Shown here: positions 1,307 through 36,478 of the stretch, piece after piece
How the letters are laid out: the number at the start of each line of letters is the position of its first letter
Numbering within the stretch: the stretch's first letter is position 1
NCBI GenBank assembly: GCA_944380395.1
Contig: CALWHM010000016.1
Span: 1-37,215, forward strand
From: an uncultured Clostridia bacterium
GTDB taxonomy: Bacteria > Bacillota > Clostridia > Christensenellales > UBA3700
Direction: 5' to 3'
Length of the DNA: 37,215 bases
Notes under the pieces: generated by a model
What the model saw: the letters and a program-made list of their open reading frames with translations, nothing else
Databases searched by the model: none
What the model was told of the DNA's origin: nothing
Translations under genes and position numbers: made by a program

Positions 1307-3247
1307 GTGACCGACAAGGAAAGAGCCGTTGCGGCAAGCGTCAAGAAGGATAATAAAGCGGCAAAGGGCGCCAGGAAGGACGCCAAGAAGGATAAAAAGA
1401 AGGCGGCTTCAAAAAAGGGCGGAGCGGCAAGCGCCGCAAATAAGAGCGTAAGGGGCGCAGAGGGCAAGAAAAAGGGCGGCTCTAAGAAGGCGGTCAAGCT
1501 CAGCGGCGCTGCGGGCGCAGGCGTGAATAAGGCGGATACTTCCGCCCCCGTTGTGAAAAGGCACGGCAAACTCGTGGAGCAGACGGGCGGCAAGGCGGTG
1601 CACGCAAATAAAGGTCTGGAAGTTATTTTTTTGGGCGGCGTGGGAGAGATAGGCAAGAATATGACCGCTTTGAGGTACGGCGACGACATTCTGCTTATCG
1701 ACTGCGGTTCGTCCTTCCCAACCACGGATACTCCGGGGGTGGATCTTATCATTCCCGATTTTTCCTATATTGAAGAAAATGCGGACAAGGTGAAGGCTTT
1801 GGTGATAACGCACGGGCACGAGGATCACATCGGCGCGGTGCCGTATCTGGCGGAAAAACTGCCGGGGCTGAAGATATACGCAAGCTCACTTGCCTGCGCG
1901 CTGATAAAGCATAAATTGGAAGAGCGCGGCATACATACGCCGGGAACGATAGTCGTCGAGGGAGGCGGCGTGGTCAGAGCGGGCTGTTTTTCCGTGGAAT
2001 TTATTCGCGTGAGCCACAGCATATCGGGCGCGTTCGCGCTGAGCATAACCACGCCCGTGGGCAAGGTGTTCCATACGGGCGACTACAAGATAGACTTCAC
2101 GCCGGTGGACGGTCAGGTGATGGACTTGACGCGCATAGCCGAGATAGGCGATTCGGGCGTAAAACTTATGCTGGGCGAGAGCACGAACGTGGAAAAGCCG
2201 GGCACCACCATATCCGAAAGAAAGGTGGGGGAAACGCTGGAACGCATATTCGCCACCAATAAGGACAAGCGCATAATCATAGCGACTTTTGCCTCCAACG
2301 TGAACAGATTGCAGCAGATAGCGGACATCTGCGAACGCTGCGGGAGAAAGATAGTTTTCAACGGCAGAAGTATGATAAACGTGTCCGGAATGGCGCGGGA
2401 GCTGGGCTTGCTGAAAGTAAAGGACGGCACCGTTATAGAACAGGAGGAGATGAACAAGCACCACTACTCCAAGCAATGCGTGATAACCACGGGTTCGCAA
2501 GGAGAGCCGATGAGCGCCCTGACGCGTATGGCTGCGGGCGAAGATAAGATGGAAGTCACCCTTCACGATTTGGTGGTAATCTCTTCAAATCCCATTCCCG
2601 GCAACGAAAAATTGGTGTATACGGTGATAAATAACCTGTATCGCCGCGGAGCCAAAGTGCTTTACGGTTCGCTGGAAGCGCTGCACGTTTCCGGTCACGC
2701 CTGCCAGGACGAGCTGAAACTTATGCTTTCTTTGGTCAAACCCGAGTTTTTCATACCCGTGCACGGGGAGTACCGTCACCTCAGGCAGCACGAGGCTTTG
2801 GCGCAGTCTTTGGGCATAAAGCCTTCCTCGATAGCCATAGCGGAGATAGGTTCGCGGTTTATTTTGCACAGGCATTCGCTCAAACAGGCGGAGGGCGTAG
2901 AGGCGGGCAACGTGTATGTGGACGGACTCACGGACGTGGACAACGTGACGCTGCGCGACAGGAAGGTGATGAGCAACAACGGTATGGTGATAGTGCTTGT
3001 GACGGTGGCGCTTGCGGAAGGTCGGCTGCTTGCGCCGCCCGAAGTGATAGCGCGCGGACTGCCCGTGGACGAGGCGCAGACGGAGGAAGTCAGGGACTTG
3101 GTAATGCAGGTGATGGAAGAGCGCGATTACAGATCCGCCGACGACAGAGCCAACTTCAAGCGCAAGTTAAAGCGCACTCTTACCCGCTATTTTGACGCGC
3201 AATGCAGGCAAAAGCCTATGATATTGCCCATTGTGATAGAAGTATGA
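1307..3247 (+). CDS. rnj: Ribonuclease J with a Lys/Ala-rich N-terminal extension
   Basis: RNase J is a metallo-beta-lactamase/beta-CASP endo- and 5'-exoribonuclease central to mRNA decay and rRNA processing in Bacillota. The zinc motif HGHEDH is at residues 169-174. The HTGDYK and GSQGEP segments and the C-terminal domain ending LKRTLTRYFD are all present. The protein is 646 residues; the usual length is about 555. The difference is a low-complexity tail over residues 1-101, rich in Lys, Ala and Gly, before the conserved core begins at GLEVIFLGGVGEIGKN. The start is GTG at 1307, supported by GGAGGAA at 1294-1300. The tail is strongly basic and probably disordered, perhaps binding RNA or ribosomes (inference). 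Whether it is RNase J1 or J2 type cannot be decided here. Confidence 0.93.
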   Translation: MTDKERAVAASVKKDNKAAKGARKDAKKDKKKAASKKGGAASAANKSVRGAEGKKKGGSKKAVKLSGAAGAGVNKADTSAPVVKRHGKLVEQTGGKAVHANKGLEVIFLGGVGEIGKNMTALRYGDDILLIDCGSSFPTTDTPGVDLIIPDFSYIEENADKVKALVITHGHEDHIGAVPYLAEKLPGLKIYASSLACALIKHKLEERGIHTPGTIVVEGGGVVRAGCFSVEFIRVSHSISGAFALSITTPVGKVFHTGDYKIDFTPVDGQVMDLTRIAEIGDSGVKLMLGESTNVEKPGTTISERKVGETLERIFATNKDKRIIIATFASNVNRLQQIADICERCGRKIVFNGRSMINVSGMARELGLLKVKDGTVIEQEEMNKHHYSKQCVITTGSQGEPMSALTRMAAGEDKMEVTLHDLVVISSNPIPGNEKLVYTVINNLYRRGAKVLYGSLEALHVSGHACQDELKLMLSLVKPEFFIPVHGEYRHLRQHEALAQSLGIKPSSIAIAEIGSRFILHRHSLKQAEGVEAGNVYVDGLTDVDNVTLRDRKVMSNNGMVIVLVTVALAEGRLLAPPEVIARGLPVDEAQTEEVRDLVMQVMEERDYRSADDRANFKRKLKRTLTRYFDAQCRQKPMILPIVIEV

Positions 3248-3837
3248 GTAAAGAAGAGATATTGCTCAGGGCGTATGAGAACGCAAAGGCGGCGTTCATA
3301 CCCGTATGCGACGAAGAATGCGCGCGCGTGCTGCGCGAGCAGTGTGAAAAGACGGCGCCTGAGCGCATTTTGGAGATAGGCACGGCGGTGGGGTATTCCG
3401 CGGCGGTGATGGCGCTTGCCTGCGGCGCGCAGGTGGATACGATAGATATGGATGAAGAGCGTCTGCTTGCGGCGCAGAAGCTGTGGAAAGAGCTGGGCAT
3501 AAGCGGACGGATACACGCGTTTTGCGGGGACGTAAAGGCGATTCTGGAACAGGTGACGCACGGGAAAAAGTACGGCTTGGTGTTCATTGACGGTCCCAAG
3601 AGCGCATACAGATACATATTCGACCATATGAAGGGGCATGCGGAGGAGAACGCGGTCATCATATCAGACGACGTAAATTATCTGGGACTTGTGCAGGGGG
3701 AGGGCTATCCTCCGCACAAGCACCGCACGATAGTGGTGAATATGCGCAAATATCTCGAATACATATCGGCTCCGCCCTTTGAAACAAGCATATTTTGGGA
3801 GGACGGCATTGCCGTGACAAAGGTGAAAAAATGGTAG
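3244..3837 (+). CDS. trmR: SAM-dependent O-methyltransferase, probable tRNA 5-hydroxyuridine methyltransferase (TrmR)
   Basis: This 197-residue class I methyltransferase carries the SAM-binding motif ILEIGTAVGYS at about residues 42-52 and the acidic post-motif DTIDMD near 65-70. A later FIDGPKS segment is typical of the YrrM/catechol-O-methyltransferase-like family. The ATG at 3244 overlaps the RNase J stop as ATGA, implying translational coupling; an in-frame ATG at 3202 would overlap more and add residues absent from the family. In Bacillus, TrmR (YrrM) methylates ho5U34 of tRNA to mo5U34 and is encoded beside U32 proteins that help make ho5U. Here the next gene is a U32 protein, so context supports the assignment. 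A small-molecule O-methyltransferase remains possible. The stop is TAG and is used as a real stop. Confidence 0.82.
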   Translation: MSKEEILLRAYENAKAAFIPVCDEECARVLREQCEKTAPERILEIGTAVGYSAAVMALACGAQVDTIDMDEERLLAAQKLWKELGISGRIHAFCGDVKAILEQVTHGKKYGLVFIDGPKSAYRYIFDHMKGHAEENAVIISDDVNYLGLVQGEGYPPHKHRTIVVNMRKYLEYISAPPFETSIFWEDGIAVTKVKKW

Positions 3838-24070: not shown

Positions 24071-24901
24071 ATGAACTTGGATATTTATAAAGAATGTTTG
24101 CATTATCAATATAAAATTAAAAAAAAGAGCGCCTTTTTTCAGGAATTCCCTATATTCATAAGACAAAAACTACTTGGAAAGTTTGAAATTCCGTATATTG
24201 AATTTTTTATAACAACAGAATGTAATTTAAAGTGTGAGCATTGCTCTAATCTGATACCGTTTATCGAAAAAAAGGAACATATTGCTTTTTCCGAATTTAA
24301 GCTTGATTTAGATGTGCTGCTGTCAAAAATAGATCGTCTTTACAGATTGAAGCTGCACGGAGGAGAAGTCTTTTTACATCCGGAGCTTTGCGAGATGGTT
24401 AATTATGCCGACAGTTTGAAAAAAATCAAATCCATTAGAGTTGCTACAAACGGCACGGTTATACCGTCTGAGAAAGTTTTAAAAGTTTTGGCTGCGAGTA
24501 AAGCAGTTGTGCAGATCAGCGATTATCCAGCGTTTTCCGGTAAAGCGGAAAAAATAGCGGAGCTTTTCCGAATGTATGGGGTAAAATATGTCAAATTAAC
24601 GGGGCAAAAATGGCGTGATATGGGGGAGATCAAAAAGCGTGAAACAAATAGGTTTAAATCTTGTTCGATAACGCGCTGTACGTCGTTGTATCGCGGAAAA
24701 ATATATGTTTGTTCCCGCGCGGCGATGATGGAGGAACTTGGCTGCCATTTTTATGACGGGATAGATATTGCAAGCGATAAAAGAACATTACGAAGAGATA
24801 TATTGCGCATATATAACGGGGAACATTGCAAGGCTTGTTTTTATTGCGACGGAGATACGGATTTTGCAGAAGAAATTCCGGCGGGGAAGCAGTTATTATG
24901 A
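24071..24901 (+). CDS. Radical SAM protein with C-terminal cysteine cluster
   Basis: The 276-residue protein has the radical SAM cluster motif C51-x3-C55-x2-C58 (TECNLKCEHCS). LKLHGGEVFLHPEL resembles the GGE SAM-binding motif, and RVATNGT is also typical. The C-terminal part holds C198, C203, C214, C253, C256 and C259, a spacing that fits an auxiliary Fe-S (SPASM-like) site. GAGGGGG at 24061-24067 supports ATG 24071. The stop overlaps the next gene as ATGA. Such proteins often accompany glycosyltransferases in surface-glycan clusters and may modify a sugar or peptide; the substrate is unknown. Codon usage is clearly more AT-rich than in the ilv genes. Confidence 0.82.
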   Translation: MNLDIYKECLHYQYKIKKKSAFFQEFPIFIRQKLLGKFEIPYIEFFITTECNLKCEHCSNLIPFIEKKEHIAFSEFKLDLDVLLSKIDRLYRLKLHGGEVFLHPELCEMVNYADSLKKIKSIRVATNGTVIPSEKVLKVLAASKAVVQISDYPAFSGKAEKIAELFRMYGVKYVKLTGQKWRDMGEIKKRETNRFKSCSITRCTSLYRGKIYVCSRAAMMEELGCHFYDGIDIASDKRTLRRDILRIYNGEHCKACFYCDGDTDFAEEIPAGKQLL

Positions 24902-27900
24902 AAATTATCGGTATAATTACGACAAAGAATAGATTTCAGTATTTTGAAAGAGCGTTAAAATCCGCTATTTCGCAAAAAAGAGCATTAGACGAACTCATAG
25001 TTGTCAGCGATTCGGAAGCCGATATAAAAGAGAAGGAGCGGCAGCTGGTGCAAAGCGTCAATGCAATTTTCTTGGAGGATGAACGCGAACATAATTATGC
25101 GGGTTCATTGAATACGGCTATTCATGCTATCCTTGCAAAAAGCCTGTTTGGCTTGAAGGATAGCCGGCAAACTTATTTGGCGTTTTTAGATGATGATGAT
25201 ATATGGGAAGAAGAATATATTTTTGCATGTGAAAAGGTTTTAATCGACGAAGATTTTGTTGTAAGCGGAATTCTTTATTGCAATGAGCAGGGGGAACAGC
25301 CGCTGTCTATTCCGCATGAATTGAGTATGGAGAGTTTTTTGCGCGGCAATCCGCATTTGCAAGGTTCCAATACTTTTGTGAAATTATCGACTCTTCTTAA
25401 AGCGGGGCTATTTGACGAAAATATGAGCTCGACAACAGACAGAGATGTCTTTACACGCATTATGCTTTTAAACCCGTCGTATGCGGTTGTGAATAGACAT
25501 CTTGTTAAAGTCGACGCGTTTAATTCTCGCGAAAGAATTACCAACGGAAGAATAATGAAAACTGACGGACTGCGTAAATTTTTTTATAAATACGGCGGAT
25601 ATATGTCCGAAGAGGTTAAAGGAGCGTTTTTCTTGCGTGCGAAAAATCTTTTCGGGATAGATAAAGAAAGCATTTGCAAAATTCCACAGGGTCCAACAAG
25701 GCCGTGTATGCGTTATACAAAAGACAAATACCGCGGTAATCTGGTCATAGGTTTTATAGTTACCGAATATGACCTTGGACTCAGAATATTAAACGAAGTG
25801 GCTTCATTGAGGCGAGATAATACAAAAGTAGTTATATTTATCAATTTTACGCAGAGCCGAAAGCAGTTTATAGAGATTCTGGAAAACAGCGGATACGCCT
25901 ATGAGTTGATTGACAGAGAGTGTGTTCGTCGAAAAATCGGTAAGGGCGGATTCGATCAATTTGTGACGGAGGATAAACTTATCGAGCCTGTTATTAAAGA
26001 TATTGCGGTAACGCGTACGATTTTACAAAAATATCTTTATCAGACTACGGCCGAAGGCGACGTTATTTGGATTCTTGACGAGGATATGCGGCTTAAAGAG
26101 TTGCTTTATGATAATGAAGGGCTTAGGGAATATCCGCTGGATATCGACGCTGTAATCGGAGAATATATCGGAGAATATGATGCAGTCATCGGAGGTTATG
26201 CGTTGGATGCTCCGCTGCCGGCAATGTCTACGCTTCGCACATCGCTTTTAGACTATGTATATGCGAAAGTCGGGCTTTGCGGAAAATGCACGCTTGATTC
26301 TTTTCGGGATTATTATTACGATCTTTCGGATGAAACGGCAAAGCATTTGGAAACGCCTGTAAAATGCGCTGCAAATTATGCGTTGTCCGATGTGTTTAGC
26401 GGCAAAGCCCGTTCAAGGCCTTTATTTATACAGGATAGTGTGATCAAGGAAGCGATTAGCCGCGGGGGAAATACGATAGTTTTCAATCGCGAACTCCTTA
26501 ATATTCCCAATTGGTCCATACAAATCGGTGACAAAATCGGGCGGAGAAGTGATTACTTTTGGGTATTGCTTGCTAAGAAAAAAGGATATAAGATAATAAA
26601 TGCGCCGTTTGCTACTTTGCACGACCGATCGAATGCGGAATTCGACTTTGAAAAAGAAAAGGAAAAACTGCTGTTGGATTTGATTGGGTCTTCTTTTACA
26701 AAGGCGGTCGCAGAGGTTGGTATTGACGCGCGGGAAGAAGATTTTTGCTGCAGTTATAAAAAGTTCTTTTTATCTCGTCTTACTAAATTCGTTGCAAGTT
26801 TTTACAGGATACAAGGATTGCTCTCCATTATAAAGGATGAAAAGTATTTGGAATATTTTACGGATAACGAGCTGTACTCCTATTTGAAATCTATGCAATC
26901 ATATCTTGAAGCGGAAAAAATCGTGTGTGCGTACGACGATATTTGCAGGAAATTGCATATGCAGAAGCATATGCGGAATAAAGATACATTTCAAAAAAAT
27001 ATAGAAGAATATTTTCATCTTTCGAAAAATTCGCTGAGGCTTCTCGGAAACGGCGGGGAAGGCGTTGTATTTACCGACGGGGTTTATGTGTATAAATATT
27101 TTTTTAAGCCGCTGAAAAATATTTCATTCTTGAAACAGATATCAAAAAAGTTTCAATACTGCAAACAACTCCATAAACTGGACTTTTTTGAAATAGCAGA
27201 TACTACCATTATAAGGTATAGATATGAAGATTCGGCTCCGTATCGCGGCGGCTGTACAAATGATTTTGCGGAATTGTTGCGCTTTGCCGAGCAGAACGGG
27301 TTTATATTCGATAATTTCAAACAGAGTAATTTTATCGTGGTCAATGGCGTTGTTAAGTTGATCGATTACGGAAAATCCTTTCTTCCTTTTTCGCAGAAAG
27401 GTATGGATAAGTCAATAACGCGTGTTTATGAGATGCTGCGTTACCCCTTTTTGAGTGAGGCAGAGTTCAAGCAACTGATTCAACGTTCTTATAATGGCCT
27501 GACATTATACATAGACGATGGAAAAGAACGGTTTGGCAAGCTTGTGAGCAGGCGTTATAAGGAGGATATTCACGACTCTAAAGTGTTGGATTTAGTTCGG
27601 CAGATAAAGCCTTCAAAGGTGCTTGATTACGGGGCGGGGAAATGCAAGATAGCAAACGAGTTGGCTGAAAATTATGATGTCAGTGCGTACGATATAGATA
27701 TCGATACCATAAGCGCCCGTGCACAGCCGAAAGTAAAAGTTCTTATAAATCGTACTGAATTGCAGAAGGAGCATTATGATTTGATTATATGCAACCTAGT
27801 CTTATGCTGCGTGCCGAACGATACCGCGCAAGAAATAATGTGCGACATAAATGCAGTTTTGAAAAATGGCGGGAAAGCCATCGTCAGCATCTGTAATCCG

Positions 27901-28263
27901 TTGTTCAATGCGGTACAGCATACGGAATTAAGGAGGAGCGGATTAAAAGGGGATTACAGGCATTCGGAATATTTTGAAAAACTTGCGACTGTAGGAACCC
28001 CCGTTCGCGGAGAATATCACCGTCCGATAGAATACTATCAAAACCTTTTTTCAAGAAACGGCTTTCAGGTAGAGCAGACGGTTGAAGGGGATGGTATAGA
28101 CGTGGATACGCTTATGCCGATTTCCGAGCATCTCATATTTGTTTGCAAAAAGGCGACAGACGCAAAACAATATAAAGATTGCACGTTGATGATAAAAACC
28201 AACCCGATGGAATGGCGGTCTATTTATAAAAATGTGTGCCATATTGTAAATTCATTGGAATAG
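24898..28263 (+). CDS. Giant multidomain glycosyltransferase: GT2 / GT-A-like / kinase-like / methyltransferase
   Basis: This protein of 1,121 residues starts at the ATG overlapping the radical SAM stop. Domains in order are: GT2 glycosyltransferase (about 1-280), with IIGIITTKNR and the DDDD metal motif at 98-101; a second GT-A-like domain (about 285-650), with WILDEDM (D394-D396) and GRRSDYFWV then HDRS; a kinase-like domain (about 705-880), with glycine loop GNGGEGVVF (717-725), Lys K733, and D805, N811 and D823 in place of the APH/kinase catalytic loop and DFG; and a class I SAM methyltransferase (about 900-1100), with VLDYGAG at 908-914. The last 35 residues look like the first strand and helix of another GT domain. 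That domain continues in the same frame after the TAG stop, so this frame may be one piece of a split protein. Substrates are unknown. Confidence 0.8.
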   Translation: MKIIGIITTKNRFQYFERALKSAISQKRALDELIVVSDSEADIKEKERQLVQSVNAIFLEDEREHNYAGSLNTAIHAILAKSLFGLKDSRQTYLAFLDDDDIWEEEYIFACEKVLIDEDFVVSGILYCNEQGEQPLSIPHELSMESFLRGNPHLQGSNTFVKLSTLLKAGLFDENMSSTTDRDVFTRIMLLNPSYAVVNRHLVKVDAFNSRERITNGRIMKTDGLRKFFYKYGGYMSEEVKGAFFLRAKNLFGIDKESICKIPQGPTRPCMRYTKDKYRGNLVIGFIVTEYDLGLRILNEVASLRRDNTKVVIFINFTQSRKQFIEILENSGYAYELIDRECVRRKIGKGGFDQFVTEDKLIEPVIKDIAVTRTILQKYLYQTTAEGDVIWILDEDMRLKELLYDNEGLREYPLDIDAVIGEYIGEYDAVIGGYALDAPLPAMSTLRTSLLDYVYAKVGLCGKCTLDSFRDYYYDLSDETAKHLETPVKCAANYALSDVFSGKARSRPLFIQDSVIKEAISRGGNTIVFNRELLNIPNWSIQIGDKIGRRSDYFWVLLAKKKGYKIINAPFATLHDRSNAEFDFEKEKEKLLLDLIGSSFTKAVAEVGIDAREEDFCCSYKKFFLSRLTKFVASFYRIQGLLSIIKDEKYLEYFTDNELYSYLKSMQSYLEAEKIVCAYDDICRKLHMQKHMRNKDTFQKNIEEYFHLSKNSLRLLGNGGEGVVFTDGVYVYKYFFKPLKNISFLKQISKKFQYCKQLHKLDFFEIADTTIIRYRYEDSAPYRGGCTNDFAELLRFAEQNGFIFDNFKQSNFIVVNGVVKLIDYGKSFLPFSQKGMDKSITRVYEMLRYPFLSEAEFKQLIQRSYNGLTLYIDDGKERFGKLVSRRYKEDIHDSKVLDLVRQIKPSKVLDYGAGKCKIANELAENYDVSAYDIDIDTISARAQPKVKVLINRTELQKEHYDLIICNLVLCCVPNDTAQEIMCDINAVLKNGGKAIVSICNPLFNAVQHTELRRSGLKGDYRHSEYFEKLATVGTPVRGEYHRPIEYYQNLFSRNGFQVEQTVEGDGIDVDTLMPISEHLIFVCKKATDAKQYKDCTLMIKTNPMEWRSIYKNVCHIVNSLE
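28261..28263 (+). other. In-frame amber codon separating two halves of one reading frame
   Basis: TAG lies in frame between the reading frames at 24898 and 28294; 28294 minus 24898 is an exact multiple of three. No other stop occurs from 24898 to 29737. Reading through gives ...NSLE-X-FGRFEHRIAVV, where X would be Gln if the codon was CAG. Confidence 0.9.
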
Positions 28264-28293
28264 TTCGGTCGTTTTGAGCACCGCATCGCTGTT

Positions 28294-29739
28294 GTGGATC
28301 TGAGTAAGGTAGAAGAGAGAGCGAGAAGGTATGATTCGGATGATGAAGAAAAACTCAAAAAAGCACTATTATCGGCAAAAGAAAACAATTTGCTGGATGA
28401 AATCATTTTTGCAGAAGACAACAATGACGAAAAGGAAAGAATTTATAGTAGATATTTCGGAGTCAAATCAAAGAACGGCCATTCTTTAAACGGTCAGGGG
28501 CTGTATGCGACAGTGTACGCCTTTGAAAAAATCAGGAGTAAGTTTGTATTTCAAACAGATAGCGATATTATCTATTTTATAAATTCAGATGCCGTACAGA
28601 AGGGGATCGATGCGTTAAAAGCAGGTGCTGCAACCGTATCGCTCGGGGTTGCAAGGTTTGTTTCAAAAGAGATAATATACGGCGCAAGAACCGAAGTAAG
28701 GACGTGCTTTCTAAATCTGGACATATTGAAGGCGCGCTTGCCGCTGCCAAACAACATCATACAAGGACGGTTGCAACTTCCATGGCACAGAAGTTTCGAT
28801 CTTGTACTTGAAGGGAAAGAGAGCGTTCGTTTTGTCGACGGCGACGCGTGGTTTATTCATCCCGAAAATCAAACAAAGACAGAACAAAACTTTTTAGCAA
28901 CGGCAGCGGAGCGTATCGAAAACGGTTGGTTTTGTCCAAAACAGAAAGAACAAGTCAATTTGCAGGGTTCGCGGGATGAATGGACGGAAAAAACAAATGC
29001 AGATGTGGTAGTGTATGTTCGCGGTTATAATACGCCGTGTAAAAAATTGAAACGGCTGTTTGATAGTTTTAAGCGTCAGACCTTCCAGCGCTTTGACATT
29101 GTCTATATCGATGACGCGTCCACAAACGAAAGTGCAGATTATGCAAAATTGATTATGCGTTACGATCCGTATTTTGCAGGAAGAACCGCAGTTTGTTGGA
29201 ATGACGTAAGAGTAGGCGAATTGAGCAACTTTGTCTTTGCAATGCAAAACATGGTGATAAACAAAAATGCCATTGTCATAAATGTTGACAACGACGATTA
29301 TCTGGTCAACGACAGAGCAGTGGAAATCATTGTCGGAAAGTTTTCCGGAGGGGTTGAAGTAACTTGCGGAAATTGTGTTCGATGGGACAAACCGCTCAAG
29401 CATTATCGCGTATATTCGTTTGATAAAGTTTGGGAGAGAGGAGGCGATAACATTTGGCTGCACCCAAAATGTTTTAGGAGATATTTATTCGATTGTATCG
29501 ATATAGAAAACGATTTAAAGATCAACGGCGAATATGTAGATATAAATACAGATTTTGCATTTATGCTGCCGATGATTCAAAATGCGGACAGAACGGAATT
29601 TATAGATGAAATATTGTATTACTTTGAGCCAAGCCCCGAAAACAATAAGCGAACGGGAAAGTATAGTGAGCAATACAAAGCAGAAGTTAAAAAAAGTCTT
29701 TTAGAAAAGGCAAAGGGGAGGATGTATGAAAAAAAATAA
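28294..29739 (+). CDS. Glycosyltransferase with two GT-A domains, probably the C-terminal part of the preceding protein
   Basis: From GTG 28294 this gives 481 residues. There is no ribosome-binding site before the GTG, unlike every other gene in the island, and the frame is the same as that of the preceding gene with only the TAG between. The first domain (to about residue 220) has the metal motif TDSD at 88-91 and VDGDAWF. It lacks the opening strand of a GT-A fold, which is found instead at the end of the preceding frame. The second domain (about 230-460) is a complete GT2 with VVVYVRGYNTP, VYIDDAST and NVDNDD at 330-335. It may be a remnant, a readthrough product, or a separately started protein. 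The end overlaps the next gene by 14 nt. Confidence 0.65.
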   Translation: MDLSKVEERARRYDSDDEEKLKKALLSAKENNLLDEIIFAEDNNDEKERIYSRYFGVKSKNGHSLNGQGLYATVYAFEKIRSKFVFQTDSDIIYFINSDAVQKGIDALKAGAATVSLGVARFVSKEIIYGARTEVRTCFLNLDILKARLPLPNNIIQGRLQLPWHRSFDLVLEGKESVRFVDGDAWFIHPENQTKTEQNFLATAAERIENGWFCPKQKEQVNLQGSRDEWTEKTNADVVVYVRGYNTPCKKLKRLFDSFKRQTFQRFDIVYIDDASTNESADYAKLIMRYDPYFAGRTAVCWNDVRVGELSNFVFAMQNMVINKNAIVINVDNDDYLVNDRAVEIIVGKFSGGVEVTCGNCVRWDKPLKHYRVYSFDKVWERGGDNIWLHPKCFRRYLFDCIDIENDLKINGEYVDINTDFAFMLPMIQNADRTEFIDEILYYFEPSPENNKRTGKYSEQYKAEVKKSLLEKAKGRMYEKK

Positions 29740-31648
29740 AATATGTTACGAGTTGAATTCGTTGGAATTACTTAATGCCGGTGTTGACGAGATATATCAA
29801 AGAAAGAAACATTATATCTCAGGAAAAGATACAATATACCTGAAAAGCATGGTAGCAGGTATGGTTCTTACATTTGAAAGAATGTGCAGATATGTATACT
29901 ATTCCGATATTAATATCCCTGAATCATGTTATAACCGAGTGTTCAAGGAGCAATTTCCTTTCTTATACGAGCGCTTTTATGACAAAAAATACTATTTGGT
30001 ACGGCATGGGGAACGTATTTTGGTAAATGGTATCACTTATTTTACGCGAATTTTGGAATACATTCGAAATATCAATGTGCATGCGGTCATTTCCGCTCCC
30101 ATTTCAACGGAAATGCGGATAGATTCCGCCTTTATCGATGAATTTCCAAAAATCTCCGAAAATGTCGATTATCTTAAAAACGGTGTTCTGACAATTGCAG
30201 GTATGCTTATAATGATATTTTCCGTTATGAGATCAAATCCCAATGGCAGTAAAGAGAAGGGTAGTATAGAGAACGATTTGAAAAAATGCATCAACCATTT
30301 TTCCAATATATGGGGCAATGCAATTTGGGGAATTGCGCAGAGAGGTCAGAAGACAGGAGAGTTGTACAAATATCTTCAAGGGGTTTTTCGAGCAAACTAT
30401 GAAATTGAAATAAGAAAACACACAGTTACCGATGATATTCTTGAAATGATTTTCGGTGAGCTGTATCCCGATACGGTTAAACAGATGCATGGAGATAAAT
30501 TGTATTTTTCACTCGACCTTTCATCAAGGCAACGCGCTCCGTATTTTGGAGCAACAGGGAATATATCGGCAGAGAAAGACAGATATATTCTTACCATTGA
30601 TAAAGGCAGTAATATCGGTAAATATTTTTTTGAGGATTACGAACTTTTAATAGAAGATAAAACAGTCTTTATGGAAATATGTAATTGCGTGCCGCCGTTT
30701 TTGGCTGTCGCATATCTATATCATAATGGTATTTGCAGGCTGTCCGAGATTACTGCCGACGATATCCAAAAGATCAAAAAATTAAATCAACCCAAATTTT
30801 ATCGCAATAAGGATATAACTATATTATCCAGCGGAACACGTTATGCAGATATGCGCGAGATAAGTAAAAGCCTTACGGAAGGAATGATGCGCTTTCTTCT
30901 GCAACTTGAGAACGATACAATTTTTTGGCTGAATATTCCGGTCTATTTCGGTTATTCCAAGTTAGCCGATATATTAGGCAGGTTAAGATTATCCGAAGAA
31001 ATAAGAGAGAAAGTAATAGTGCTTCGAAATTTTTGTGCGCATTACGGGATACTTAATAATTTCAATAATAAGGATAGGAAGACGGGATATTATATAGATA
31101 TTCCATTTGTCGTGAAAACGATCTACGGCCTGATAGATGAATTGGATAGAAACGGATATTTCGAAATTGCACGAAGTGTGAGAATGAATTTTCATGAAAA
31201 AGCGATAAATAATCTAATAGGAGTAAAGTATAAGCGACTTTTTGAAATGTCACTTGATATGTTTTCTTTGCCGAAGGAAAAAGTAGTTCAAGTGCTAAAC
31301 GATTTCAATCGTTCATGGAAAGCGGTAGAAAATTCTGTTATCGATAGTGATGCGGAAAAGATTCTAATGCAGTCGGCTTTACCATTTAGTTTTTCGAGCA
31401 AGAGGCCGATTTACCCTAATTGTAGCAATAAATTTACGTTTCACTGTCTTTCTTTGGTATGTGTCGAATGCGCCGGTCTTAAATTCAGAGGGGTTGAGGT
31501 GCCGCAATCTAAAATTATGTTTTTTAGGACAGGGACAAAAAATCCCGATTTATTTTCGATTGACGATAAAAAGGTATCGTTAGAGCTTGTATCGGAAAGG
31601 CAAGACGGATTGATAAAAAAATTATTTTACAAGGCGATGCAAGAATGA
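29726..31648 (+). CDS. Unrecognised 640-residue protein with a HEPN-like RNxxxH motif
   Basis: I do not recognise the full protein. GGGGAGG at 29715-29721 supports ATG 29726. It is mostly helical-looking and charged, with one moderately hydrophobic stretch (VLTIAGMLIMIFSVM, about 153-167) that may be buried rather than membrane-spanning. Residues 434-439 read RNFCAH, followed by YGILNN. This resembles the R-x4-H motif and trailing Asn of Abi_2/AbiD-type HEPN domains, which in many proteins form an RNase active site. No antitoxin or nucleotidyltransferase partner is next to it; its neighbours are glycan genes. It could be a helical scaffold of the glycosylation system or an RNase. The 133 nt after it hold nothing recognisable. 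Confidence 0.6.
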   Translation: MKKNKICYELNSLELLNAGVDEIYQRKKHYISGKDTIYLKSMVAGMVLTFERMCRYVYYSDINIPESCYNRVFKEQFPFLYERFYDKKYYLVRHGERILVNGITYFTRILEYIRNINVHAVISAPISTEMRIDSAFIDEFPKISENVDYLKNGVLTIAGMLIMIFSVMRSNPNGSKEKGSIENDLKKCINHFSNIWGNAIWGIAQRGQKTGELYKYLQGVFRANYEIEIRKHTVTDDILEMIFGELYPDTVKQMHGDKLYFSLDLSSRQRAPYFGATGNISAEKDRYILTIDKGSNIGKYFFEDYELLIEDKTVFMEICNCVPPFLAVAYLYHNGICRLSEITADDIQKIKKLNQPKFYRNKDITILSSGTRYADMREISKSLTEGMMRFLLQLENDTIFWLNIPVYFGYSKLADILGRLRLSEEIREKVIVLRNFCAHYGILNNFNNKDRKTGYYIDIPFVVKTIYGLIDELDRNGYFEIARSVRMNFHEKAINNLIGVKYKRLFEMSLDMFSLPKEKVVQVLNDFNRSWKAVENSVIDSDAEKILMQSALPFSFSSKRPIYPNCSNKFTFHCLSLVCVECAGLKFRGVEVPQSKIMFFRTGTKNPDLFSIDDKKVSLELVSERQDGLIKKLFYKAMQE

Positions 31649-31781: not shown

Positions 31782-32543
31782 ATGAAGATAGGTATTGTCG
31801 GCTACGGCCATGTAGGGAAAGCTATGCATAAATTATTTCAAGACGCCGTCATCTATGACGAGCCGTTGGAATTGGGCGCACGGAGCGATATTAACGGGTG
31901 CGACACCGTGTTTGTATGTGTGCCTACGCCGCAAGGTGACAACGGAAATTGCGATACGAGAATAGTTGAAGAAGTTTTAAGCTGGATAGAGGCGCCGCTG
32001 ATAATCCTGCGTTCAACCGTCAGGGTGGGATTTACAGATAAAATGATGAAGAAGCTTCATAAAGAGATTGTTTTTCAACCCGAATATTACGGTGAAACCG
32101 TAGCGCATCCGTTTGCAGATTTGAATGAAAGGTCTTGGCTGGTTTTTGGCGGAACAAAGCACGGGATCAGCTTGGCAATAAAGACTTATCAAACAGTAAT
32201 AAACTCCAACATACGCATTTATCAGGCCGATGCAAAAACGGCCGAAATGGCGAAATATATGGAGAATGCTTTTCTCGCGTTGAAAGTAACCTTTTGTAAC
32301 GAGATGTATGATATAGCAAATGCGCTGGGGGCGGATTATAATATCGCAAGGGAAATTTGGGTTGCGGACCCGCGCATAGGAACCAGTCACACATTCGTAT
32401 ACGAAGATAACAGAGGGTATGGAGGAAGTTGCCTTCCGAAAGATATAGCTTCAATCGTTGCGCAATCAAATGAAAGCGGAGCAGATTGTTCTCTTTTGCA
32501 GAGCGTAATTAAAAAGAATAATATTTATCGGGGAAAAGAGTAA
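31782..32543 (+). CDS. Short UDP-glucose/GDP-mannose dehydrogenase-like protein
   Basis: UGDH-family enzymes oxidise the sugar C6 of a nucleotide sugar to a uronic acid. The protein has the NAD-binding GYGHVG (7-12), FVCVPTPQ, the LRSTV strand, the KYMENAFLALKVTFCNE dimer helix and the catalytic cysteine in GYGGSCLPKD (C217). At 253 residues it is well short of the usual 400 or more. The C-terminal nucleotide-sugar-binding domain is missing, with a normal-looking stop and no remnant after it. Either this is a stable short form with another substrate or it needs a partner protein. AAAGGGG before ATG 31782 is a good ribosome-binding site. The stop overlaps the next gene as TAATG. Confidence 0.8.
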   Translation: MKIGIVGYGHVGKAMHKLFQDAVIYDEPLELGARSDINGCDTVFVCVPTPQGDNGNCDTRIVEEVLSWIEAPLIILRSTVRVGFTDKMMKKLHKEIVFQPEYYGETVAHPFADLNERSWLVFGGTKHGISLAIKTYQTVINSNIRIYQADAKTAEMAKYMENAFLALKVTFCNEMYDIANALGADYNIAREIWVADPRIGTSHTFVYEDNRGYGGSCLPKDIASIVAQSNESGADCSLLQSVIKKNNIYRGKE

Positions 32544-33298
32544 TGATAAATAACCCAAAAGGTGAACCTTATTATGATTATTTAATTCACTCCGGATATG
32601 TTTTCTGCAATTACAGCGAAAAACACTACATATTCGAAAAAGACGGACGCATCATCAAAATTGCAAAGAGTATTTATAATAATGATGATACAGACGAATC
32701 GTATTTTATAGAAAGAATGGCGCATTCCGTTTTACAGGCATATAATTTGCCGATTGCGGAAATATATGACGTGTACCCAAAAGGGGAGTTTCTAGAAGGA
32801 TTCGTCGTTTTAGAGGAAGAAAAGGTTGAAGGCGAAATCTATTATAGAAAAGATTGCCCTGAAAGTTGCTTATTACAGGCAGTGCATTTGATGCAGGAAG
32901 CATCGAAAATTAAAGGAAAGAGCTTTGGCATGATGGAAAGGGACGGACAGGCAAAGTTTTCATCGTGGAAAGATTTTTTATACAGCATTTTAGACAAAAT
33001 GCCCGAAAAAGAACGCGCCAAAAATCGTTGCAAATTAGACGATATGCCCGAGTTAACCGAGGCGTCGTTTGTCTTTACAGATTGCAATATGGCAAATTTT
33101 GTATTCAATACGGAGCGATTGAAAAAAGCAATTGACATTGAGCGGCCGCTATGGGGCGACCCGTTATTCTTAAACGGAATAATAAAAAAACGCAATCCAT
33201 ATATGTACGCTTTAATGAATCGTGAGGGGGAATCTTATATTGTTGACCTGTACGCAGAATTATCTCCGTATATTTTTAATTCTATCGGTAAAGTATAA
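32543..33298 (+). CDS. APH-like phosphotransferase (aminoglycoside/choline kinase fold)
   Basis: The 251-residue protein shows the catalytic pattern of APH/choline-kinase-like enzymes. FVFTDCNMANFVFN corresponds to the H-G-D-x4-N loop, with Thr-Asp where His-Gly-Asp is usual. IDIERPLWGDP corresponds to the metal-binding ID-E-GDP segment. An N-terminal IIKIAKS with later E and VVLEEE hinge-like residues fits the ATP-binding lobe. The start shares a base with the UGDH-like stop (TAATG). In this setting it probably phosphorylates a sugar, glycan or small alcohol rather than conferring drug resistance (inference). It is the last gene of the island and ends convergent with the MMPL gene. Confidence 0.75.
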   Translation: MINNPKGEPYYDYLIHSGYVFCNYSEKHYIFEKDGRIIKIAKSIYNNDDTDESYFIERMAHSVLQAYNLPIAEIYDVYPKGEFLEGFVVLEEEKVEGEIYYRKDCPESCLLQAVHLMQEASKIKGKSFGMMERDGQAKFSSWKDFLYSILDKMPEKERAKNRCKLDDMPELTEASFVFTDCNMANFVFNTERLKKAIDIERPLWGDPLFLNGIIKKRNPYMYALMNREGESYIVDLYAELSPYIFNSIGKV

Positions 33299-33478: not shown

Positions 33479-36430
33479 TCAAGACTCGTCGTCCGTGTGT
33501 TTCGTATTGGCTGAAGTATCCGCCGTGTTATCCGTGTTGTCCGCGGGGGTATTTGCATTGCCGGCGGCGGAGTTATCCGCTGAGTTGTCGGCGGAGGTAT
33601 GCTCGTCGTTCAGGCGGCGGGAGGAGAGATATTCTTCGTAGGGCACGCCCTCTTTTTTGGCGGCTTTTTTGGCTTGTTTGGTAAGGGCGGCTTGCGCCTT
33701 GGCTTCCGCGCGCGCCTGCTTTCTTGCCGCCATATCCGCCTTTATCTGCTTGATGTCTATAAAGGGGGCGTTCGGGTCGTAGTCAAAGCCGAACTCCGCG
33801 GCTTTTTCGCGCATCATCTCTTCGTGGCGTTCGCGCTTTTTGATGCGGCGCGTTTCGTTGTAATCCTCGGCGGCGTCGTCATATACAAGCTCCTTGCCCT
33901 TGCGCTTTAAGATGGCGGCGTGCGCTTTCTCCTTAAAGAGCATTATGGAAGGGAGCAGGGTGAACACCAGAATATAGCTGAAGAAAGTGCCGCGGGCGAT
34001 AAGTTCGGTTATCTGTCCCACGATTATATTGCTTGTTATCACGTTCACGGCAAGGCACACGGCTATGAGTATCGCCGCGGAAGTGGTGACGGATGGCGCG
34101 GAGCGGTAGATGGCGTTGCGGATAGCCCTTTCCGGACGGCAGCCCTTTTGTTTTTCCTCATTGAGTTTGGAGGTGAAGAGTATGGCGTAGTCCACCGTTG
34201 CGCCCAGCTCTATGGCGGAAACGATGAGGTAAGCCATAAAGTTTATCTGCCCGGAGAATACGGAGAGTATGCCGGGCGCGAAAGGCGCGAGCAGGGACAC
34301 GAAGTACACTATGGCAAGGTTAAAGAATATGCCCGCTTCTATGACCGCCAGCAATATCAGCGAAGTGATAAAGGAGCGGAAGGTGAACAGCAATATTATG
34401 AAGATTATCACCGCGGAGAGAATGTTTACCAGCATAAAGTCGTTCGGGGTGACGGAGGCAAGATCGCTTGCGCCCTGGGCAAGACCGGTGATTATCACCT
34501 CATTTTCCGCAATGCCGAAAGAGCTTGCCACATAGGAACGAATGGCTGCTATGGAAGCGTAAGATTCGGCGTCTTCCGGGTGTCCTTCCAAATTTACGGT
34601 GTAAAGCATATATTCGCGCGTTGTGCCGTCCGCACCCGTGTAGCTGTTCACAAAGTTGCCTTGGATAAAGGTCATCACTATCTTATTCGCGGCTATCTCG
34701 TCGTATCTGTCTTGAGAAATTATCGTGCAAAGCGAAAGTATGTCCTCCGCCTTATGTTCGCCGTCCTCGCTGCCCAAAGTGTTGCGCAGATAGTTTACAA
34801 ATTCGTACTGCTTGGCCACATAGTCCGTGCTGTCGGATTCGTCGCCTTCTTTGGCGGAGAAGGGCACCACGATTATCACTTGGTTGGAGTAGTCCTGCAA
34901 GACGTATTGCGGCGTAGTAATATCCTCAGTGGCGGTGGCTTCCGTGGTGGAGATATACCCAAGAGGCGCCAGCGACTGGAAGTACGCGCAGGGCAGGCAC
35001 ACCACCGCGCAGATGGCTATAACGGCTATCGCCACGCCTTTTTTGGTTATGTTTTTGGAAACAAAGCCAAGGTGCGGCTCCACCACCCAGGAGTGCTGCG
35101 ACTTCATAATCGGCTTGTTGAACAGCAGAATGAGCACGGGCTGCAAAATTATCACCGTGAGCAGGGAGAGCAGCACGCCTTTGGCAAGTACGAATCCCAA
35201 ATCGTAACCCATACCGAATTGCATAAAGAACAGCGCGATAAAGCCGCCTATCGTGGTCAAAGCGCTTGCGGAAATGGATGCCAGCGTTTTGGGCAGCGCG
35301 GAGATTATGGCTTCGCGCGGGTGCAGTTTTATGCGCAGTTCTTCATAATAAGTGTGCATTAAGAAGATGGCGTAGTCCATTGCAAGGGCAAGCTGCAATA
35401 TGGTGGAGCAGGAGGACGTTATCGTGGAAATGGTGCCCACGGGATTGCCCGCGATGATGTTGGAACCCATATTAAGCAGTATGGAAATGCCCAGCGTAGC
35501 CAAAAAGATGAGCGGCTCAAAGTAAGAGTGCGTGGTGAGCAGGAGTATGAAGAACACCGCCACCACCGCGATAGCCACGAATATGGGCATATCGTTTACG
35601 GAGCTGTCCACCAAAAGGCGCGCGTTTTCCGCCGTTCCGCCGAAGTAGTAGCAAGACTCCGCGGAGATGGTTTCACTTATCAGTCCCGCGTCTTTTTGCT
35701 GATTGATATTGTCGTTGATTATCTGTTCTATCCTGTTTAACGCGTCTATCGTCACATTGTCGCTTGCGGCGCTTTTCAGGTAGAAGGAAACTATGTAAGT
35801 GGTCACAACGGCGCCGTTGCCCAGCTCCGTTTGCTTCACGTAGTTGCCCGCCGCGCTTTCGTATATCTGCTCGGCTACAACGGGATCTATGCCCTCTACG
35901 TGGATCGGACCTATGTCCAAGCCGCCGTCGCCCAATTCCAGCACCATATCGAACGTGCCTATCCACACGCTCTTACTGATGATGGTGGAGGTCACTTCCT
36001 TGCCGTCCTTGCCCTCCGTAACGTACATACGGTTAAGCTCTTTATCCCCGACGATGGAGTCGTAGATGGTTTGGACTTGGTCTTTGCTTAAATAGGAGAT
36101 GGCAATATTCAAATCGCCCTGAATGGAGTAGGCTTCTTCCAGCACGTTTTTGCCTATCATCGTGTTGGTGTCGTCTTTGAGGTAAGAAGTGACGTCGCCG
36201 TTCTTCTTCACGAACAAAAGCCCGATGAAGGAGAGCACCAAAAGCGCGGCTATAACGCCCACGACCACCCACTTTTTATCCAGTAGACGACCCGCAAACG
36301 CCGCGGTCAGCGCACCTTTTTCCCGCTTTTGTCCGCCTTTTTTACCGAAGACGCGCCTTTTGCCCGCCTTCTTTTGTTTGCCCGAACCGGCGCCTTCCGG
36401 CGCCTGCCGCTCCGTTTGTTCCTCTTCCAT
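33479..36430 (-). CDS. MMPL/RND-superfamily transporter
   Basis: The 983-residue membrane protein has the RND two-fold layout. A first helix (WVVVGVIAALLVLSFIGLLF) and a large extracellular domain precede five helices around MDYAIFLMHTYYEE. A second copy follows, with another extracellular domain and helices around VDYAILFTSKLNEE. The paired DYAI segments carry the proton-relay-type Asp. MMPL proteins export lipids or hydrophobic compounds using the proton gradient. The N-terminus has a basic stretch (residues about 14-40). The C-terminus has a cytoplasmic Lys/Ala-rich tail and an Asn/Asp/Thr-rich end. The ATG at 36430 is preferred because GGGAAG precedes it; a GTG at 36451 is possible. Export of a product of the adjacent island is possible but unproven. 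Confidence 0.9.
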   Translation of the reverse strand: MEEEQTERQAPEGAGSGKQKKAGKRRVFGKKGGQKREKGALTAAFAGRLLDKKWVVVGVIAALLVLSFIGLLFVKKNGDVTSYLKDDTNTMIGKNVLEEAYSIQGDLNIAISYLSKDQVQTIYDSIVGDKELNRMYVTEGKDGKEVTSTIISKSVWIGTFDMVLELGDGGLDIGPIHVEGIDPVVAEQIYESAAGNYVKQTELGNGAVVTTYIVSFYLKSAASDNVTIDALNRIEQIINDNINQQKDAGLISETISAESCYYFGGTAENARLLVDSSVNDMPIFVAIAVVAVFFILLLTTHSYFEPLIFLATLGISILLNMGSNIIAGNPVGTISTITSSCSTILQLALAMDYAIFLMHTYYEELRIKLHPREAIISALPKTLASISASALTTIGGFIALFFMQFGMGYDLGFVLAKGVLLSLLTVIILQPVLILLFNKPIMKSQHSWVVEPHLGFVSKNITKKGVAIAVIAICAVVCLPCAYFQSLAPLGYISTTEATATEDITTPQYVLQDYSNQVIIVVPFSAKEGDESDSTDYVAKQYEFVNYLRNTLGSEDGEHKAEDILSLCTIISQDRYDEIAANKIVMTFIQGNFVNSYTGADGTTREYMLYTVNLEGHPEDAESYASIAAIRSYVASSFGIAENEVIITGLAQGASDLASVTPNDFMLVNILSAVIIFIILLFTFRSFITSLILLAVIEAGIFFNLAIVYFVSLLAPFAPGILSVFSGQINFMAYLIVSAIELGATVDYAILFTSKLNEEKQKGCRPERAIRNAIYRSAPSVTTSAAILIAVCLAVNVITSNIIVGQITELIARGTFFSYILVFTLLPSIMLFKEKAHAAILKRKGKELVYDDAAEDYNETRRIKKRERHEEMMREKAAEFGFDYDPNAPFIDIKQIKADMAARKQARAEAKAQAALTKQAKKAAKKEGVPYEEYLSSRRLNDEHTSADNSADNSAAGNANTPADNTDNTADTSANTKHTDDES

Positions 36431-36478
36431 ATATACTTCCCGTATGCGCACACACGCGCAAAAAACTTTATTGTTAAT

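Follow-up and report, generated by a model that had tools for sequence, protein, structure and literature searches.

Our question was whether one gene can encode a self-contained glycan assembly line. The gene lies on contig CALWHM010000016.1 (assembly GCA_944380395.1), from an uncultured Clostridia bacterium of the Christensenellales, and we analysed a stretch of 37,215 nucleotides, referred to here as the window. The original prediction, made from the window sequence, was a polypeptide of six domains: four for sugar transfer, a kinase-like domain and a methyltransferase. We find that this rare and mobile six-module protein family is real and that intact copies exist in other genomes. It is a fair guess that the protein assembles and caps an oligosaccharide unaided. 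Features of the large gene are listed below.

24898..28263, + strand, large gene, part before the stop: 1,121 amino acids, modules 1 to 4 plus roughly 30 module 5 residues
28261..28263, + strand, in-frame TAG, inside module 5
28264..29739, + strand, large gene downstream of the stop: remaining module 5 sequence, and module 6
24898..25692, + strand, module 1: GT2 glycosyltransferase (GT-A), LDDDD motif D98-D101; PF00535, E 4.4e-11
25729..26982, + strand, module 2: GT-A fold and C-terminal helices, GT75/MtdL-like; D394-x-D396, R447, R549-x-x-D552, H575
26983..27555, + strand, module 3: protein-kinase fold; G-loop, K733, N806 (HRD-Asp position), N811, D823-Y-G
27556..28161, + strand, module 4: class I S-adenosylmethionine (SAM) methyltransferase, motif around 909-914; PF13489, E 2.4e-8; PF08241, E 8.4e-7
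28165..28971, + strand, module 5: GT-A glycosyltransferase-like, QTDSD motif, split by the TAG; predicted fold
28972..29736, + strand, module 6: GT2 glycosyltransferase, VDNDD motif; PF00535, E 8.7e-15

Intact relatives share one module order

We searched a draw of 41 nearest relatives, and samples of 47 genomes from the family, 397 from the order, 391 from the class and 398 from the phylum. Of the 41 nearest relatives, seven gave matches at E <= 1e-3; in three, the match was weak and confined to the methyltransferase. Five of the 47 family genomes matched at E <= 1e-10: the source genome, G005, G012, G042 and a remnant in G007. At E <= 1e-25, the order sample gave eight matches (the source genome, the G007 remnant, G012, G042, G127, G192, G265 and G267). 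Besides the source genome, the class and phylum samples contained no match at E <= 1e-20. A wider scan of genome contigs found at least 214 stretches encoding a relative. Among the best 80 of these at least 214 loci, five are full length (L034-L038). Of these, L034, L035 and L038 correspond to the G127, G192 and G012 copies, while L036 and L037 are from Bacteroidales metagenome-assembled genomes. Viral contigs yielded 43 listed loci, one being full length (L114). L185 came from a search with module 5 and aligns with L034 over residues 3-1612 (27% identity, E 7e-156); searches with modules 2 and 6 brought no further loci.

The result is eleven intact six-module proteins (G042, G005, G012, G127, G265, G192, G267, L036, L037, L114 and L185). 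All are colinear over their whole length and lack an internal stop. The single polypeptide and module order originally proposed are thus borne out in the relatives. Identity to the G042 protein is 69% for the window and between 62 and 48% for the six other intact clostridial proteins. For the L036, L037 and L114 proteins, identity in the best segment is 40-41%.

Some relatives are extended. The L036 protein (1,947 amino acids) has an extra N-terminal epimerase (PF01370, E 2e-46), L114 (1,799 amino acids) has SLOG fused at its C-terminal end, and L185 (1,964 amino acids) ends in a histidine phosphatase (PF00300, E 1.4e-13). Others are rearranged. In a 1,106 amino acid Methanosarcina protein (L041), the kinase module, a stretch without a methyltransferase match and modules 5 and 6 are joined to a histidine phosphatase. 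Modules 1-3 are found in Kordia (L040), and a Pseudoalteromonas plasmid (L020) has modules in the order 1, 3, 2. On a Salinivibrio plasmid (L021), a gene for a GT2 is accompanied by another that encodes a GT2, a kinase-like region, module 5 and module 6. Hence, the modules also occur in other combinations. Note that module and SLOG matches at each locus were re-tested by tblastn. Partial matches also came from three records of plasmids and a single phage record.

At the Methanosarcina locus, a radical SAM gene adjoins and there is a separate dehydrogenase-GT2 fusion, a 542 amino acid protein (L041:15122-16750) in which a short dehydrogenase is joined to a module-1-like GT2. In a Bacilli contig (L039), the large gene is represented by its start, the accompanying radical SAM gene appears replaced over its first half, and an IS30-like transposase, recognised by eye, is nearby.

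Three transferase-like modules and a methyltransferase

Modules 1, 4 and 6 were assigned by family profile, and folds were predicted for modules 2, 3 and 5. For PF00535, modules 1 and 6 score 43.4 and 55.5 bits, respectively, against a cut-off of 23.3. Profile matches include GalT1 (5hea) and 9jma for module 1 (E 1e-4 to 2e-4) and GalT1 for module 6 (E 1e-5). Module 5 has a predicted GT-A fold with a DxD motif. The module 4 assignment as a methyltransferase rests on Pfam (34.3 bits for PF13489, cut-off 27), and motif I residues D910, G912 and G914 are present in 11 of 11 proteins. Profiles A4, A5 and A12 found no relative among PDB sequences. We also considered internal duplication. This was rejected: hhalign assigned probabilities no higher than 2% to the pairings of modules 2 and 5, 5 and 1, and 2 and 1, with no sign of recent copying.

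Most of the residues named in the original prediction (D98-D101, D394, D396, K733, N811, D823 and the 909-914 motif) are present in the window and invariant in an alignment of seven relatives. D805 is the exception. Put forward as catalytic, it is Asp in just six of 11 proteins, and the HRD-Asp position is N806.

A kinase fold without the canonical Asp

The expected kinase and methyltransferase in the middle of the protein are both supported, by Pfam for module 4 and by a predicted two-lobe kinase fold for module 3. The latter has a G-loop, Lys, Asn and DFG-like Asp, and N806 lines up with the HSD Asp of TTK. This position is Asn in 15 of 16 sequences (the window, the eleven intact relatives, L020, L021 and L040), and Asp only in Methanosarcina L041. 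In L185, L020, L021 and L041, this residue was identified by eye, in stretches that tblastn identifies as the kinase module (L021 via L185 only). The G007 and L039 sequences are too short to reach it and are outside the count. Loss of the Asp is not tied to presence of the methyltransferase; relatives without a methyltransferase also have Asn. Module 3 would more likely be a regulator that binds ATP, or an enzyme of non-standard transfer, than an ordinary kinase.

The large gene is part of a cassette

Genes around the large gene in the window are as follows.

24071..24901, + strand, radical SAM protein with C-terminal cysteines; PF04055, E 2.9e-8
29726..31648, + strand, 640 amino acid protein with RNFxAHYG motif, overlapping the end of the large gene; no Pfam match
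31782..32543, + strand, short UDP-glucose/GDP-mannose dehydrogenase-like protein, 253 amino acids; PF00984, E 1.3e-24
32543..33298, + strand, aminoglycoside-phosphotransferase-like kinase, 251 amino acids; weak, NF000107 only (E 0.038), no Pfam match

The radical SAM stop codon overlaps the large gene start (ATGA). Hence, the two are probably co-translated. Cysteines C51, C55, C58, C198, C214, C256 and C259 are invariant in all eight radical SAM sequences aligned, two of which are distant. A pVip match (E 2e-11) was taken as general family similarity, and a viperin identity rejected. The RNFxAHYG motif, invariant in six of six homologs of the 640 amino acid protein, resembles the R-x4-H pattern of HEPN/Abi proteins; one of the six homologs has a weak Csx1_HEPN match (E 0.06). 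By eye, the aminoglycoside-phosphotransferase-like protein retains D-x-N-x-x-N.

We counted these genes across eight clostridial copies, the window and seven intact loci. The short dehydrogenase is present in all eight, and also adjoins the large gene in L114. Radical SAM is found in seven (the window and six of the seven intact loci), the 640 amino acid protein in six, and the aminoglycoside-phosphotransferase-like kinase in five (the window and four intact loci; in G127 it is cut by the contig end). SLOG accompanies four of the eight and was not found for the window, G005, G192 or G267. Beyond these eight, SLOG is 3' of the large gene in L036 and L037, fused to it in L114 and nearby in L185. 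No radical SAM match was found in the L036, L037, L114 or L185 loci.

Directly downstream of the cassette is an MMPL-family transporter gene (33479-36451, - strand). The window also encodes a 983 amino acid BspA-type leucine-rich repeat protein (PF13306; 7427-10378).

A putative glycan assembly enzyme

We consider it an evenly balanced proposition that the large protein is a self-contained glycan assembly enzyme, encoded in a horizontally moving cassette. We infer every activity, the order of steps and the acceptor. Briefly, modules 1, 5 and 6 would add sugars in succession, while module 2, resembling a GT75 nucleoside diphosphate (NDP)-sugar mutase, might provide a furanose donor in place or hold a sugar on Arg447. 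Module 4 would methylate the product, and kinase-shaped module 3, with its canonical Asp lost, might bind ATP as a regulator or catalyse non-standard transfer. The neighbouring dehydrogenase could produce a donor of the uronic acid type, and a sugar or the acceptor may be altered by the radical SAM protein.

The predicted structure of module 2 has a GT-A fold plus a C-terminal helix region, as in GT75, and MtdL is the closest structural neighbour by VIA Z. Residues D394, D396, R447, R549 and D552 are invariant in nine of nine sequences. On modelled structure, module 2 has the GT75 fold feature; it may largely share the GT75 residue pattern, but not sequence similarity. A possible link to TET-associated glycosyltransferases (PF20691, E 0.12, in 1/10 and 1/9 members) was dismissed as chance.

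Several points weigh against our proposal. Searches of Pfam and of PDB sequences found no GT75 match to module 2, and Foldseek E-values place COLGALT1, PcManGT, Mnn9, mannosylglycerate synthase and LH3 above MtdL. The metal-binding His occupies the aligned column in seven of nine sequences (Gln in Kordia; His one place on in L185), and the match to GT75 was judged by spacing, not superposition. A base Asp and metal-binding His can also serve GT-A transferases. Hence, module 2 may be a plain GT-A transferase. This is a serious contender, somewhat short of an even chance, and would give the protein four transferases. Of the four sugar-transfer domains originally proposed, modules 1, 5 and 6 stand as transferase-like, and module 2 is the one in doubt. 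More generally, each AlphaFold prediction was built on just eight sequences. No methyltransferase can be recognised in Methanosarcina L041, and several relatives carry just some of the modules or a different order. Among cassette genes of recognised family, a lipid-carrier enzyme, flippase and exporter are absent.

Movement between lineages and a link to phage

G012 and G127 belong to different families. Their large proteins are 88% identical, and their Der GTPases 59% identical. For the window and G005, from the same genus, the values are 64% for the large protein and 94% for Der. This contrast shows transfer between lineages, and the cassette seems to move horizontally. Outside the cassette, window open reading frames share one match with 14-20 kb stretches of relatives, and this (28% identity) is between two paralogous pyridoxal phosphate enzymes.

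The L114 contig carries integrase, anti-repressor and replication-initiation genes, and is therefore taken to be phage-derived. At L114:6130-14152, the large gene-SLOG fusion has a short dehydrogenase gene next to it and a type II DNA methyltransferase gene before it. Loci L031, L032 and L017 have, near the cassette or its remnant, an AbiE pair, HsdS with a TIR protein, and a DUF262-type (Orf5/HEC-06) protein.

Alternatively, such a cassette could serve phage-host conflict, by lysogenic surface conversion or by modifying a phage or host molecule, rather than make a house glycan. Consistent with this are the copy among temperate phage genes and beside a DNA methyltransferase, the patchy spread, the SLOG partner and the HEPN-like motif of the 640 amino acid partner. 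Defence genes near three clostridial loci also fit; note that the survey covered ten proteins, chosen by eye over six loci and without a control, eight of which match some model. Conversely, the window cassette sits between amino-acid-metabolism genes and the MMPL transporter. Its PADLOC matches are limited to general ones for radical SAM (pVip) and methyltransferase (mad2) and two weak ones of the dehydrogenase. We regard a role in phage-host conflict as unlikely.

WbdD is a poor model for the protein

In another alternative, the protein would polymerise and terminate a surface polysaccharide in the manner of WbdD or Klebsiella O7 ORF6. Here, glycosyltransferase modules would polymerise, and the kinase and methyltransferase would cap. 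The same module classes do lie within one polypeptide. As described in PMC11231755, O7 ORF6 has the order methyltransferase-kinase-coiled coil-GT2-GT2, requires its kinase Asp and is used with ABC export. The same paper indicates that kinase and methyltransferase modules are joined in O7 ORF6 and WbdD (E. coli O9a, K. pneumoniae O3), and that capping and GT2 modules share one polypeptide in O7 ORF6 and in the O12 single-polypeptide system, in each case as here. The module order is different, however. In our protein, the kinase-like module precedes the methyltransferase, glycosyltransferase modules lie on both sides, and Asn replaces the kinase Asp. Furthermore, with module 4 extending to about residue 1088 and module 5 beginning at about 1090, these borders leave no room for a coiled coil in between, a conclusion drawn from the borders, as no coiled-coil predictor was applied. 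Hence, two defining features of WbdD, the original model, do not apply: the methyltransferase-kinase pair with its kinase Asp, and the coiled coil. Wzt_C and LpxC were not found in the source genome, which is 88% complete; the same searches were positive in two and four of 14 control genomes, respectively. A polymerase-terminator is improbable on this evidence.

The source genome copy is interrupted

The large gene frame runs from ATG 24898 to the TAG at 28261-28263 (1,121 codons) and, past the TAG, is open for 491 codons to TAA 29737-29739. The original prediction had the right coordinates and frame, and its length of about 1,613 includes the amber codon (1121+1+491). Its premise of amber readthrough is not supported. 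Although the segment after the stop is as well conserved as that before it (pN/pS against G042 of 0.26 and 0.28, with divergence alike on both sides), readthrough or recoding to give full protein is very improbable: there is a sense codon at this position in 10 of 10 aligned relatives, no CUA tRNA was found among 25 tRNA genes in the 88% complete genome, TAG also terminates at least one window gene (3202-3837, an O-methyltransferase by eye; one of 17 other open reading frames chosen), and the gene does decay, since G007 keeps just a 549 amino acid remnant.

That remnant (L017:2909-4558) is terminated by TAG, and is a second decayed copy in the family. In the window, the earliest in-frame start downstream of the TAG is GTG 28294; by eye, there is no recognisable ribosome site 5' of it. 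We read the TAG as a recent lesion or base error. With the gene interrupted, the full-length enzyme is probably not made in the source genome.

Comparison with known systems

Glycan enzymes that combine several modules and include kinase and methyltransferase caps are already known. Our search of the open-access literature, with subscription papers outside its scope, found no earlier description of the six-module architecture. If our reading is right, the protein would amount to a compact and transferable factory for glycans, with three transferases, one mutase-like module, an Asp-less kinase-like module and a methyltransferase arranged in a single order in two phyla and on a phage-like contig. 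It would also provide an instance in which a GT75-type mutase feeds transferases within the same chain, and a family for probing the role of kinase folds after loss of the catalytic Asp. A bolder version, which we hold tentatively and on balance doubt, is a class of all-in-one glycan synthases. An embedded metal-dependent NDP-sugar mutase would pass furanose donors, or a sugar held by Arg447, to flanking transferases. The Asp-less kinase-shaped module would do non-canonical nucleotide chemistry, and phages and other mobile DNA would spread the line through Bacillota and Bacteroidales and, as partial versions, to Proteobacteria and archaea.

Modules 1 and 6 resemble GT2-like enzymes of known structure, GalT1 and, weakly (E 0.007), L. 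monocytogenes RmlT (8bz4 series). The difference is that modules 1 and 6 share a chain with three other enzyme types. Module 2 is like the GT75 mutases MtdL, UAM and RGP (PMC9937993) in its fold, including the C-terminal helices, and seemingly in the spacing of DxD, Arg, Arg-x-x-Asp and, in most sequences, His. In contrast with those mutases, module 2 is one of six in its protein, is known from sequence and predicted fold, and has no sequence similarity to them that we could find. The Legionella proteins Lcin_0519 and Lani_1194 also join a kinase fold to a methyltransferase. PMC9758233 reports them with catalytic Asp residues retained and without glycosyltransferase modules, places Lcin_0519 beside O-antigen export and glycosyltransferase genes, and describes both as distinct from WbdD. 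The six-module protein, as a whole, is not a WbdD.
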